From: Lysobacter changpingensis
GTDB lineage: Bacteria > Pseudomonadota > Gammaproteobacteria > Xanthomonadales > Xanthomonadaceae
Assembly: GCF_017308985.1 (NCBI RefSeq)
Contig: NZ_JADWPE010000006.1
Coordinates: 248,001-312,000, forward strand
Reading direction: 5' to 3'
Length of the DNA: 64,000 bases
The position numbers and the translations under genes were made by a program. Below, piece by piece: positions 34,369 through 38,474 of the stretch (its first letter is position 1; every line of letters begins with the position of its first letter). The notes under the pieces were generated by a model. The model was not told the DNA's origin. It did not search any database and worked only from the letters and a program-made list of their open reading frames with translations.

Positions 34369-34803
34369 TCAGGGCCGCGGAATCACCGCCAGCGTGATCC
34401 GCGAGATGCACACCAGGCGCTGGCGTTCGTCCTCGATGCGGATCTCCCACACCTGCGTGCGCCCGCCCACGTGCAGTGGTCGTGCGGTACCGGTGACGGT
34501 GCCCTCGCGCACGCCGCGCAGGTGGTTGGCGTTGATCTCGATGCCGACGCAGGCCTCGTCCTCGCCGACGCAGAGCATGCCGGCGCTGCTGCCGAGCGTC
34601 TCGGCCAGCAGCACCGACGCGCCGCCGTGGAGCAGGCCATAGGGCTGCCGGGTGCGTTCGTCGACCGGCATGGTCGCGCGGATGAAATCGTGCCCGACCT
34701 GCGTGAACACGATGCCCAGTGGCTCCATCGCGGTGTTGCGCGAGAGCGCGTTCAGCGCGGCGAGGTCGGGCGGGGTGCGGAATGGGGAGCGGGGCGTATC
34801 CAT
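34369..34803 (-). CDS. Hotdog-fold acyl-CoA thioesterase (PaaI/YdiI type)
   Basis: The 144-residue protein has the DUF4442/4HBT hotdog fold: MEPLGIVFTQVGHDFIRATM, then RQPYGLLHGGASVLLAETLGS with the HGG and catalytic Glu of the YdiI/EntH group, and GIEINANHLRGVREGTVTG for the core helix and strands. It should hydrolyse small aromatic or fatty acyl-CoA esters. ATG 34803 is preferred over a GTG two codons upstream. It lies 124 bases before plsC on the same strand. The strong terminator behind it belongs to the upstream small-protein pair. Confidence 0.9.
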   Translation of the reverse strand: MDTPRSPFRTPPDLAALNALSRNTAMEPLGIVFTQVGHDFIRATMPVDERTRQPYGLLHGGASVLLAETLGSSAGMLCVGEDEACVGIEINANHLRGVREGTVTGTARPLHVGGRTQVWEIRIEDERQRLVCISRITLAVIPRP

Positions 34804-34830
34804 CGCCACACCTTAGCCGAGCGTCCGGGC

Positions 34831-34897
34831 AAAAAGGGGCCCGGCAGTCAGTGCGTCGTTACGGAGAGAGTCCGACGCACCGGCTCCGGGCCAGGGG
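34831..34897 (-). terminator. Long-stem terminator behind the small-protein pair
   Basis: On the minus strand GGCCCGGAG, then GTGCGTCGGA, a loop, CGACGCAC and CCGGGCCCC pair over two stacked stems and are followed by TTTTT. It ends transcription coming from the two small genes and lies just ahead of the thioesterase start. Confidence 0.72.
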
Positions 34898-35023: not shown

Positions 35024-35209
35024 TTACGCGCAACGGAAGCGCGGCTGCATCCAGTCCCGGGCGTAGTGGCGGGTGGCGGCGTAGCCGCTGCTGTTGCCGT
35101 AGCCCACGCCGAAGTCGCGATCGCGATGGACGTGGCGCACCGGCAGCGGGACGACGACGTTCGCGCGCGGGGCGTTCGGGTTGGTCGGGATGGCAAGGAA
35201 GGCGTTCAT
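35024..35209 (-). CDS. Small paralogous protein, copy 2 (RDFGVGYG-SSGYA family)
   Basis: The 61-residue protein shares its C-terminal half with the neighbouring gene: RDRDFGVGYGNSSGYA, then RHYARDW and QPRFRCA against RERDFGVGYGSSSGYA, RRYTTEW and PPRFRFA. The N-terminal half (MNAFLAIPTNPNAPRANVVV) is different and looks disordered. AGGAC at 8 bases before the ATG is repeated in the sister gene, and the bases around the two starts are nearly identical, so both are real and arose by duplication. No signal peptide, no Cys-rich core. I do not know the family; a secreted peptide, precursor peptide or small RNA-binding protein (RGG-like tail) are all guesses. Confidence 0.72.
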   Translation of the reverse strand: MNAFLAIPTNPNAPRANVVVPLPVRHVHRDRDFGVGYGNSSGYAATRHYARDWMQPRFRCA

Positions 35210-35240
35210 GGCGGTGTCCTGGAGTCCGGAATTGCGGGGA

Positions 35241-35429
35241 TCAGGCAAAGCGGAAGCGCGGGGGCGCCCACTCGGTCGTGTAGCGGCGGTTGCTGGCATA
35301 GCCACTGCTGGAGCCGTAACCGACGCCGAAATCGCGTTCGCGGTGGTTGCGCGACGGGGCGTTCATCAGGGCCAGCGGGGAAACCGGAACCGACTTGGCG
35401 GAGGAAGCGAAAGTGTTCAGGGCGTTCAT
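35241..35429 (-). CDS. Small paralogous protein, copy 1 (RDFGVGYG-SSGYA family)
   Basis: The 62-residue protein is the first of two tandem paralogues, 31 bases apart. Residues 1-28 (MNALNTFASSAKSVPVSP and on) are low-complexity and polar. Residues 30-62 hold the shared block RERDFGVGYGSSSGYASNRR followed by YTTEWAPPRFRFA. AGGAC sits before the ATG. The promoter region contains the dyad GTGTTG-N8-CAACAC about 36 bases upstream. The basic, aromatic C-terminus with several Arg-Arg and Tyr residues is strongly conserved between the copies whereas the N-termini vary, as in a leader plus core or a linker plus functional tail. No recognisable domain; function unknown. Confidence 0.75.
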   Translation of the reverse strand: MNALNTFASSAKSVPVSPLALMNAPSRNHRERDFGVGYGSSSGYASNRRYTTEWAPPRFRFA

Positions 35430-35465
35430 GGCGGGGTCCTTCGTGGGGTGGGGTAGTGCCTCGGT

Positions 35466-35485
35466 GTGTTGGTAAAGTACAACAC
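35466..35485. promoter_or_regulatory. Dyad GTGTTG-N8-CAACAC upstream of the small-protein pair
   Basis: A 20-base dyad with perfect 6-base half-sites lies 36 bases ahead of the first small gene. Its spacing fits a helix-turn-helix regulator dimer site near the promoter. No regulator gene is next to it. Confidence 0.5.
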
Positions 35486-35793
35486 CAGATCTATTCCGCC
35501 ATGGGCCAGAAGTCACCCCACCGAAGACCTACCTTGGCGAGGCACGGCCGCAGCCGGAACTCGCTGATATAGATGGACATTTCTGGCGTTCCGTTGCCAT
35601 GACTGATGGCAGGGGGGATTCCGCCGGCCGCGCAGGCGCGCCCGGCGCTCTCTGACCGGGGCGAGAGGGAGGGTGAAAACCGTCACGTTCAGGAAGCTGG
35701 CTGCGCGGCCGCGGATGGGGGGCGCAGCGGCCAGTGCGCGAAAAGCGCAGGTTCGGCTCCTTCCCCTGCAAGCTGGAGAGGGAGAAACAACCC
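35486..35793. other. Intergenic region between small-protein pair and PLD lipoprotein gene
   Basis: About 300 bases with no convincing gene. At 35655-35675 GGGGCGAGAGGGAGGGTG and at 35755-35785 a CTCC...GGAG stretch resemble worn copies of the CCCTCTCCC/GGGAGAGGG hairpin family seen at 6888. The promoter of the small genes must lie near its left edge. Confidence 0.45.
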
Positions 35794-37866
35794 CTACAAA
35801 ATCGGCGCCAAGCCCGCCCCGAACGCGGTGAAGATCCGCGTCGTGATTCCCTTCAACCCCACCGCCACTTCCGGGAAATCCCCCACCGGCTGGTAGCACG
35901 CGCGGAAATCCGGATCGCTCGGCAGCAGCGGTTGCGGGCATTGCTCGCTGCGCACGAATTCGTAGCTGGTCGCGTAGCGCATCGGCCACAGGTCCAGGAT
36001 CGGCATCGCCTCGAACATCTTGCCGATCGAGTAGTTGAGCCCCGAAAACACCGGCGGCTTGTCGCGGCGCGCGATCACCCACGAATTGGCCGGCGCGATG
36101 TCGCGCTTGATGCTCGCCCGCAGCGCCTGGGCGAAGTCGCGGTCCTCGATCACCACCGCGCTCTCGGTGTTGTAGTGATCGCCGCGCGGATCGAAGTTGT
36201 GCGTGCCGACCACGCCGATGCGCCCGTCGATCACCATCGACTTGGCATGCAGTCCGATGCGCACGCCCGCGCGCTGCAACGGCACGGGCTGGTTCGCGCG
36301 ACGCGTGCTGTAGCGCAGCGCGGTGTATTCGCGCGAAAGCGCGCGCTGGTACTGCGCACGCTCGACGCTGCTGCGGCGGTCGTAGCGGTCGCGCAGTTCG
36401 CGATGGACCTTGCCCCGATCGACCGGCGTGACGTCCTGTGCCTCGTCGTCGGGCCGGGCCGAAGACGACGCCGCGGTGCCTCCGCTTTCGCCGGTCAGCG
36501 CACGGCTGGGCGAGATCGAACCCGGGTCGGCATCGGAACCGTTGTCGGGCGCGTTCCCGTCGGGAAACAGGTCCGGCAGCGCGCCGGTCGCCGCGATGTC
36601 GATCGGCGCGTCCGTCGGGAAGGGCTTGTACTCGAAGATGTTGAAGCCGAACTCGCGCAGGTAGCGGCGCTTGTACTTGTACGACAGCGCGTAGGCGATG
36701 AACGCGTCCGTCGCCGCCAGGCTGTTGGTGGAGATGATGATCTTCGGGCGCTGCTCGAACGGGCGCTGGTGCAGCTGCCGGAACAGGTCCTGCGCCGCAT
36801 CGGACAGCACCAGGTACGGCGTCTGCAGGACGACTTCCTCCTGCGCCGATTCGATCAGCCCGCGCAGCGAACCGGAGGCCACCGCCTGCTGGTCGGCGTC
36901 TTCGGCGTGGTGTTTCTCCGGCGTGTCGGAGATGTAGCGCACCTCGCCCACGCGCATCGCCCGCGAAGCCAGGCGCTCCTCGACGAGCGCGCGATCGCCC
37001 GCGTCGCGCAGCATCGCCTTCGCGCGCTCCGGGCGCTCGAACTGCGCCGGCGGCAGCGCCGGGACGCCCTGGGCGAGCAGCCGCGCGCCGACGTCGTTGA
37101 GCCGCTCCACCGGCACGCTGCGGCGATCGTTCCAGAACAGCGCGAAGTCATCGCGCATCACCCGCGCCACGGGACCGGCGACGAGCAGGTCGCGGTCGCG
37201 GAAGTTGTACTCGTCGTCCCAGTCGTAATAGTCGTCCTGGTAATTGCGCCCGCCGGTGATGCCGACCGCGCCGTCCACCAGCAGCAGCTTGGTGTGCATG
37301 CGCTGGTTGAGCTTGCGCCAGCAGCACGCCGCCGCGAGCGCGTACTGCGGGTAGGTGATCTGCGCGCGATCCAGCACCGGGCTGTACAGCTTCAGCTCGA
37401 AATTCGCATGCGCGCCGGCCAGTGCGGCCAGCGTGTCGACGTGCTTGAGCGCGGAAAGCTGGTCGATCAGCACGCGCACGCGCACGCCGCGGCGCGCGGC
37501 GGCGAGCAGTTCGTCGAGCACGAGCCGCCCGGCGTCGTCCTCGTCGAAGATGTAGGTCTGCAGGTCGATGGCGGTGGTCGCGCTGCGGATCAGGTTCACG
37601 CGCGCGAGCAGCGCGTCCGGGCCGCGGTCGAGGATCAGCGCGTAATGCGCCGGCGCTTCGGGCGTGGATTCGGCCAGCGCCCGCGTGGCCAGTTCGCGCA
37701 GCGGCGAGCGCTGGGCGCAGGCGTCCAGGCGGGTGCAATCGACCTGCGTCGAACGCGCCTGCACCACCATCGCCGTCGCATGGTCGCGCTGCGTGTGCGA
37801 CAGCGAGGCGCAGGCGCCCAGCGCCAGCGACAGCACGGCCACGCCCAACCGCACGATCGCTCTCAC
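35794..37866 (-). CDS. Phospholipase-D family lipoprotein
   Basis: The 690-residue protein has a lipoprotein signal (LSLALGACAS, acylated Cys near 19) and two PLD catalytic domains with HTKLLLVDGAVGITGG and HAKSMVIDGRIGVVGTHNF. It resembles envelope PLD-like proteins of the ClsC (YmdC) group, and carries an extra Ser/Asp/Gly-rich insert (about 450-500) between strands of the second domain. A cardiolipin-synthase-like or phosphodiesterase activity is likely; ClsC in E. coli uses PE. The GTG start overlaps the yceI stop in GTGA, making it the last gene of sixA-yceI-pld. Confidence 0.87.
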   Translation of the reverse strand: MRAIVRLGVAVLSLALGACASLSHTQRDHATAMVVQARSTQVDCTRLDACAQRSPLRELATRALAESTPEAPAHYALILDRGPDALLARVNLIRSATTAIDLQTYIFDEDDAGRLVLDELLAAARRGVRVRVLIDQLSALKHVDTLAALAGAHANFELKLYSPVLDRAQITYPQYALAAACCWRKLNQRMHTKLLLVDGAVGITGGRNYQDDYYDWDDEYNFRDRDLLVAGPVARVMRDDFALFWNDRRSVPVERLNDVGARLLAQGVPALPPAQFERPERAKAMLRDAGDRALVEERLASRAMRVGEVRYISDTPEKHHAEDADQQAVASGSLRGLIESAQEEVVLQTPYLVLSDAAQDLFRQLHQRPFEQRPKIIISTNSLAATDAFIAYALSYKYKRRYLREFGFNIFEYKPFPTDAPIDIAATGALPDLFPDGNAPDNGSDADPGSISPSRALTGESGGTAASSSARPDDEAQDVTPVDRGKVHRELRDRYDRRSSVERAQYQRALSREYTALRYSTRRANQPVPLQRAGVRIGLHAKSMVIDGRIGVVGTHNFDPRGDHYNTESAVVIEDRDFAQALRASIKRDIAPANSWVIARRDKPPVFSGLNYSIGKMFEAMPILDLWPMRYATSYEFVRSEQCPQPLLPSDPDFRACYQPVGDFPEVAVGLKGITTRIFTAFGAGLAPIL

Positions 37867-38474
37867 GGCGCGGCCTCCACCAGGCGCACGCGCAGCATGA
37901 AGCGGACGCGGTCGACGAGCGCGAAGCGCCAGCCGTCCAGGCCGTAGTCGTCGCGGCTGATGCTGCCGCTGGCGACCACGTCGCAATCCCGGCCGGGCGC
38001 GTCGCAGTCGGCGCGGTTGATGGTGAACGTCTCCATCCGGGTCATGCCGTGCATCGACAGCCGGCCGCGCATGCGCCCGCCGGTACGGATGAGGGAATCG
38101 GGGTGCGGTTCGGAGACGAATTCAATGGTCGGGAAACGCTGTGCATCGAAGAAACTCGGGCCGCGCGCGAGCGCGGTGTAACGATCGGAACCAGCGACGA
38201 TCACCCCGTCGGTGCGCAGCACGATGCGTACGCGACGGCGGCCGTCGGCGAGGGTGGTCACTTCGCCTTCGTACTGCGGGAAGATCCCCGACACCCGCTG
38301 CCCCCAGCGGGTGCGCAGCTCGAAGCCGAAGCGGGTGAAGTGCGGATCGAAGGACCGGGAGGAGACGGCAGGGGGCGTGCCTTCGACGGCGACCGGCTCC
38401 TGCGCCCATGCCGGCCAGAGGGCCAGCAGGGACAGCAGCGCGATGCAGGACAGGCGCGGCGGGCGTTCCCTCAC
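37863..38474 (-). CDS. YceI-family periplasmic lipid-binding protein
   Basis: The 203-residue secreted protein has a signal peptide (SCIALLSLLALWPAWAQ) and a YceI lipocalin-like barrel. Key blocks are FDPHFTRFGFELRTRWGQRVSGIFPQ and FFDAQRFPTIEFVSE, SMHGMTRMETFTI, and DYGLDGWRF with the C-terminal RVRFMLRVRL. YceI proteins bind isoprenoid or amide-type lipids in the periplasm. The GTG start overlaps the sixA stop in GTGA. Close linkage with a PLD lipoprotein supports a role at the envelope. Confidence 0.88.
   Translation of the reverse strand: MRERPPRLSCIALLSLLALWPAWAQEPVAVEGTPPAVSSRSFDPHFTRFGFELRTRWGQRVSGIFPQYEGEVTTLADGRRRVRIVLRTDGVIVAGSDRYTALARGPSFFDAQRFPTIEFVSEPHPDSLIRTGGRMRGRLSMHGMTRMETFTINRADCDAPGRDCDVVASGSISRDDYGLDGWRFALVDRVRFMLRVRLVEAAP

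Follow-up and report, generated by a model that had tools for sequence, protein, structure and literature searches.

DUF1232 (PF06803) is listed in Pfam as a protein of unknown function, and we take it to be the domain of the YkvA-type proteins. As a literature term, it appeared in the open-access literature in plant papers only. Gly/Tyr/Ser low-complexity segments occur in RNA-binding proteins. MicroProteins are small proteins that resemble a single part of a larger one (PMC6003976). The Lsp small proteins are Ax21-like, and by that description (PMC5469723) they are set apart from the family considered here.

The locus we analyzed lies in a stretch of 64,000 nucleotides of Lysobacter changpingensis DNA, which we call the window, and it shares features with several of these descriptions. 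DUF1232 proteins of Lysobacteraceae terminate in the same tail as the small proteins encoded in the window, but the DUF1232 domain is absent from the small proteins and the shared tail lies outside the Pfam match. The tails of the small proteins and of the DUF1232 proteins can be aligned with each other, and in this respect the small proteins resemble microProteins. They differ in that the shared segment is a tail lying beyond the recognized domain, and in that the genome often lacks the larger protein. The likeness to the low-complexity segments of RNA-binding proteins lies in how Tyr, Gly and Ser are spaced (GYG-x-SSGY) and in the neighbouring Arg, whereas here we see a single short, position-conserved block rather than a repeat. 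Two features are newly seen in these sequence comparisons: the tail is also carried by a DUF1232 protein, and a strongly conserved core promoter stands ahead of the first gene. We propose that the locus is a two-gene unit for basic, probably disordered cytoplasmic small proteins, in which a tail that docks on a shared partner would be produced under a regulated promoter. We put the probability of this reading at about 0.45, slightly below even odds.

A tandem gene pair and its relatives

Both small genes lie on the minus strand. Copy 1 (P0001; 35241..35429) encodes a protein of 62 residues with the shared tail starting at about residue 28, and copy 2 (P0002; 35024..35209), which follows 31 nucleotides after copy 1, encodes a protein of 61 residues with the same tail. 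An earlier, sequence-only reading of this DNA had described two adjacent genes of 61–62 residues with a shared tail and diverged N-termini, and this description holds: the local alignment of the two products scores 141, a level far from the best of 5000 shuffles, which reached 60, and the N-terminal 28 residues of copy 1 and 27 residues of copy 2 align at the level of shuffles (fraction 0.117 of 2000). The bases around the two starts, which it had called nearly identical, agree at 19 of 20 positions. An AGGA-type ribosome site is present ahead of both starts, as it is before most of the starts listed. Judged by alignment, copies 1 and 2 are true tandem paralogues with a common tail.

In a single scan of named genomes, 42 of 346 candidate stretches were confirmed as relatives. 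These loci come from Lysobacter, Luteimonas, Thermomonas, Vulcaniibacterium, Aquimonas and MAGs (one labelled Cupriavidus), and at 12 of the 42 two or three small genes are arranged in tandem. P0001 has matches in 133 of the 197 genomes of the window's family at E ≤ 0.001, a count that takes in the tails of the larger DUF1232 protein too. A profile of the tail matched at least 35 of 299 genomes of the order at E ≤ 1e-4, including four outside the family (G198, G209, G210 and G218), and at least 1 of 274 genomes of the class, namely the window's own; in both searches, the first 25–27 candidates per genome were scored. The sequence-only reading had proposed a search for homologues elsewhere as a challenge to its own claim, and these 42 loci and 133 family genomes provide many. 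By these searches, relatives are common in Lysobacteraceae.

The family has no name that we could find for it in the databases searched: Pfam, NCBIfam and PHROGs gave no credible match to P0001 or P0002, in agreement with the earlier failure to recognize a family, and it may stand unnamed among hypothetical-protein databases. No relative of the small proteins was found among solved structures (best E 0.36), 0 of 52 candidate stretches from viral contigs were confirmed as relatives, and no relatives were found on plasmids. The window itself contained no Rfam match at gathering score and no tRNA. Strings of the tail peptide had no match in the open-access literature; in two broader searches of that literature, Lysobacter was not mentioned among the matches listed, and strings of the promoter gave short matches only, again among the matches listed.

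Copy 1 orthologues at four loci (L006–L009) are 90–97% identical. Across five close species, copy 1 has a dN/dS of 0.13 over its whole length, with 0.20 for residues 1–28 and 0.07 for the tail; for copy 2, the value is 0.20 over the final 37 residues and 1.56 over the initial 16, where there are few sites. Ten columns are invariant across 43 hand-chosen tails, and some of these are broken in more diverged copies. By these measures, the C-terminal module of about 33 residues, R-x-R-D-F-G-V-G-Y-G-x-S-S-G-Y-A...Y...F-R-x-A, is the part kept most by selection, as had been proposed from the window alone, and the N-termini are under looser constraint. The values indicate purifying selection, not a dN/dS near 1, and on this conservation the pair is a conserved gene, not a chance reading frame.

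The products of the pair are basic, with a pI of about 10.8, and the last 36 residues of the small proteins include 6–7 Arg, 3 Tyr and 4 Gly. A hydrophobic N-terminus was not found by hydropathy (maximum over 15 residues 0.93 and 0.53 for the two proteins), and by the same measure neither protein contains a transmembrane stretch of the kind present in a membrane-active type I toxin. Structure models of both proteins are of low confidence, tail included (mean pLDDT 51 and 61); this is compatible with disorder and no proof of it, and we consider the small proteins probably disordered. The Arg/Tyr/Gly composition and the high pI would suit a disordered basic protein of the stress type that acts non-specifically, either like a chaperone or by compaction of the nucleoid or RNA. 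The invariance of the tail is position-specific, however (the ten columns in the 43 chosen tails), which suggests a specific contact; we regard the non-specific explanation as unlikely, though worth keeping in mind.

The tail on a DUF1232 protein

At 12 loci, including L027 and L040, the same tail ends an ORF of ~200 residues. Two of these larger tail-bearing proteins were tested, and both matched DUF1232 at ~37 bits (cutoff 23). The matches cover residues 85–115 and 87–115, and P0001 and P0002 show no match to the DUF1232 profile at E ≤ 10. At 11 loci (L027, L032, L033, L035, L039–L042 and L045–L047), the DUF1232-tail gene occupies the slot that the pair occupies in the window, near phospholipase-D-like and thioesterase genes, either alone or behind a small gene. 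In the window's genome, the DUF1232-tail gene is located elsewhere (L078; contig C3, about 360011–360646). Its tail is diverged, longer and Gly-rich, and it adjoins a release-factor gene (PCRF and RF-1 domains); beside it is also an ORF that is presumably response-regulator-like. Contig C2 of the same genome contains two adjacent DUF1232-matching ORFs without this tail (L080/L081; about 290400–291440).

A tail common to both proteins, with the genes adjacent in one slot in several genera, could point to a microprotein that competes with the larger protein: free tails would fill the docking site of the DUF1232-tail protein and so switch it off. The distribution of the two genes speaks against this. 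DUF1232-tail orthologues at E ≤ 1e-50 are present in 81 of 197 family genomes, and 43 of the 80 genomes with the core promoter element of the small gene, which is described below, have no such orthologue, including five genomes of genus g16 (G015, G062, G090, G116 and G138). When this element is used to stand in for the small gene, and genomes are treated as independent, 37 genomes have both, 43 the element only, 29 the DUF1232-tail gene only and 40 neither (p = 0.62). The small gene and the DUF1232-tail gene are distributed independently. The small protein is therefore hardly a mere inhibitor of the DUF1232-tail protein, and we rate such competition as rather unlikely. It also follows that a partner shared by both tails need not exist.

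The promoters of the DUF1232-tail genes are of a plain type and combine TTGACG or TTGACC with TAGGCT or TAGTCT at 11 of 12 loci tested (the start of L040 was not recognized, and the register at L032 is a tie). The core element of the small gene was not found at the 11 DUF1232-tail promoters examined.

A conserved promoter core and an upstream box

The 20-base dyad that the sequence-only reading had placed ahead of the pair is present (GTGTTG-N8-CAACAC, 35485–35466), and both the dyad and its flanks are highly conserved. The dyad is part of a core element, GGTGTTGTACTTTACCAACACACC (35463..35486, minus strand), that also contains a putative -10 box, TACTTT (35479–35474). From this box, transcription is predicted to start near 35467, which would give a 5' leader at 35430..35467 (minus strand); the folding of the stretch 35475–35425 is at the level of shuffled sequence (z -0.23). 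TA is present at -10 in 34 of 34 elements, the closing T being fixed by the search anchor, and the best -35 at all 34 small-gene elements has only 2–4 of 6 matches. TGAC(T/C)T and ACCA lie at a distance of 41–43 in 32 of the 33 elements measured. All six arm pairs of the dyad form in 27 of 34 rows. Because the arms show no compensatory change, an RNA hairpin was rejected and the dyad is favoured as a DNA site. A sigma-54 promoter was dropped by eye, as the GG/GC spacing is not fixed.

The core is present at 34 of the 42 named loci. The eight loci without it are six that contain only a DUF1232-tail gene, together with L022 and L033, which are the two of 36 named loci where a small gene is present and the core absent. 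Allowing up to two mismatches, a 23-base form of the core occurs at 87 sites in 80 of 149 family genomes, and its reversed-pattern control at 0. A small-gene match lies no more than 500 bases downstream at 71 of the 87 sites. We read 13 of the remaining 16: at ten, a small gene is present whose tail is diverged, and at three (G040, G088 and G120) there is no small gene. The core sites in G042, G076 and G103 have tail-profile matches 150–164 bases downstream, so that in total 84 of 87 core sites lie shortly upstream of a small gene that belongs to the family. At one of the ten diverged sites (L082; G011:C13), the small gene after the core looks frameshifted in the tail, and an intact diverged copy is found on another contig (L083). 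The window's genome contains no second core within three mismatches. On this evidence, the core occurs about once per genome and is peculiar to the small gene.

Upstream of the core is a second conserved box, GTGACTTCTGGCCCATGG (35499..35516, minus strand; about -49 to -32 of the predicted transcription start), which is a putative regulator site. At L129, which belongs to a different family of the order, the whole promoter arrangement is present together with the small gene, and variants of it are found at L128 and at the first L130 gene. The upstream box is retained without the dyad core at L127 and at the second L130 gene, both likewise from outside the window's family, which suggests that box and core are separable. 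Each of 9 genus genomes contains a single mismatch-free copy of the degenerate box pattern. With one or two mismatches, the pattern has 87 matches in these genomes versus 76 for the reversed control, so most such matches are due to chance, and a large regulon was rejected. In 7 of the 9 genomes (L145, L146, L148, L150, L152, L153 and L158), a one-mismatch box is located 54–57 bases upstream of a DUF885 gene whose product looks secreted, and another lies between divergent genes for an AraC-type regulator and an AcrB-type transporter in 3 of the 9 (L144, L149 and L154); the Pfam labels of these neighbours come from one genome each. The DUF885 gene is a possible second target of the box's regulator. 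Since the box recurs before other genes, it is not exclusive to the pair, and it probably serves a regulator that has a few targets.

The close association of core and small gene (84 of 87 sites, and also L129), and the single core in the window's genome, would be consistent with autoregulation, in which the small protein would bind, through its basic tail, to the dyad ahead of its own gene in a feedback loop with one site per genome. Genes that have the upstream box only (L127 and the second L130 gene), and the recurrence of this box before other genes, point instead to a separate regulator. The element is also missing from the DUF1232-tail promoters, and the small proteins have no confidently predicted fold. 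We consider autoregulation improbable. More speculative again is a scheme in which the tail would be a low-complexity [G/S]Y[G/S]-Arg module used in trans that binds RNA or ribosomes into assemblies: the DUF1232 protein would have a fixed copy, and the tandem free-tail genes, the promoter with one core per genome and feedback by the product itself would set the amount of assembly.

Gene neighbourhood and a candidate docking role

The slot of the pair is walled on the left, upstream, by a gene for a phospholipase-D-like protein (35794..37986, minus strand) and on the right, downstream, by a 4HBT thioesterase gene (34369..34809, minus strand). Across loci, the neighbourhood of the slot is made up of phospholipase-D-like, thioesterase, acyltransferase and hydrolase genes. 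The strong terminator that had been reported behind the pair was not recovered: a scan for U-tract terminators gave 0 terminator-like sites, and the sequence immediately after copy 2 shows no folding beyond that of shuffled sequence (z -0.80). A strong double hairpin does lie in the gap that separates copy 2 from the thioesterase gene (34815..34880, minus strand; z -3.22, with 1 of 200 shuffles folding as well). It is not a standard U-tract terminator; its T run sits in a loop, and it is found just before the thioesterase start. The proposal that the pair is its own transcription unit thus keeps its promoter and loses its terminator.

At 6 of the 42 loci (L022, L028, L034, L036, L038 and L044), the slot genes were not found around the tail gene. 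Some flanking ORFs are common to two or three of these dispersed loci, and the part of them that could be identified corresponds to methyladenine glycosylase, GGDEF and TANGO2. Neither in the slot nor at the dispersed loci is there a maturation or export gene among the identified neighbours.

This bears on the suggestion, made in the sequence-only reading, of a secreted or post-translationally modified peptide (RiPP-like, a bacteriocin or a signal), to which the small size, the tandem copies and the variable N-terminus would be suited. RiPP precursors have a conserved leader and a variable core, whereas here the pattern is reversed and the C-terminus is the conserved end; hydropathy gives no signal peptide, the identified neighbours offer no genes for maturation or export, and the tail is also found within a 200-residue protein. 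We consider such a peptide very improbable. A nucleic-acid-binding or regulatory small protein, which had been raised alongside it, may still be correct. Scarcely credible is a nascent-chain arrest or leader peptide that controls a downstream gene: it would account for the conserved C-terminus and for the thioesterase gene that comes next in the main slot, but not for the 6 of 42 loci without slot genes, the tandem copies or the same tail on a full protein.

In the docking-tail reading that we prefer, the C-terminal module would bind one shared partner, which could be RNA, the ribosome, the nucleoid or a protein. The small proteins would be free tails, produced when a regulator acts on the conserved promoter, and tandem copies would provide a higher dose. 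In the DUF1232 protein, the same tail would carry a helical domain to the shared partner. Because the -35 is weak, the box lies at -49 to -32 and the dyad covers the -10, transcription would be expected to depend on an activator and possibly also to be repressed: a regulator would bind the upstream box, and the dyad would provide a second site that may serve repression.

These genes represent a widely conserved small-protein family that is absent from Pfam, NCBIfam and PHROGs. Its tail on the DUF1232 protein is a built-in clue, and together with the conserved promoter it makes both the trigger and the binding partner of the family directly testable.
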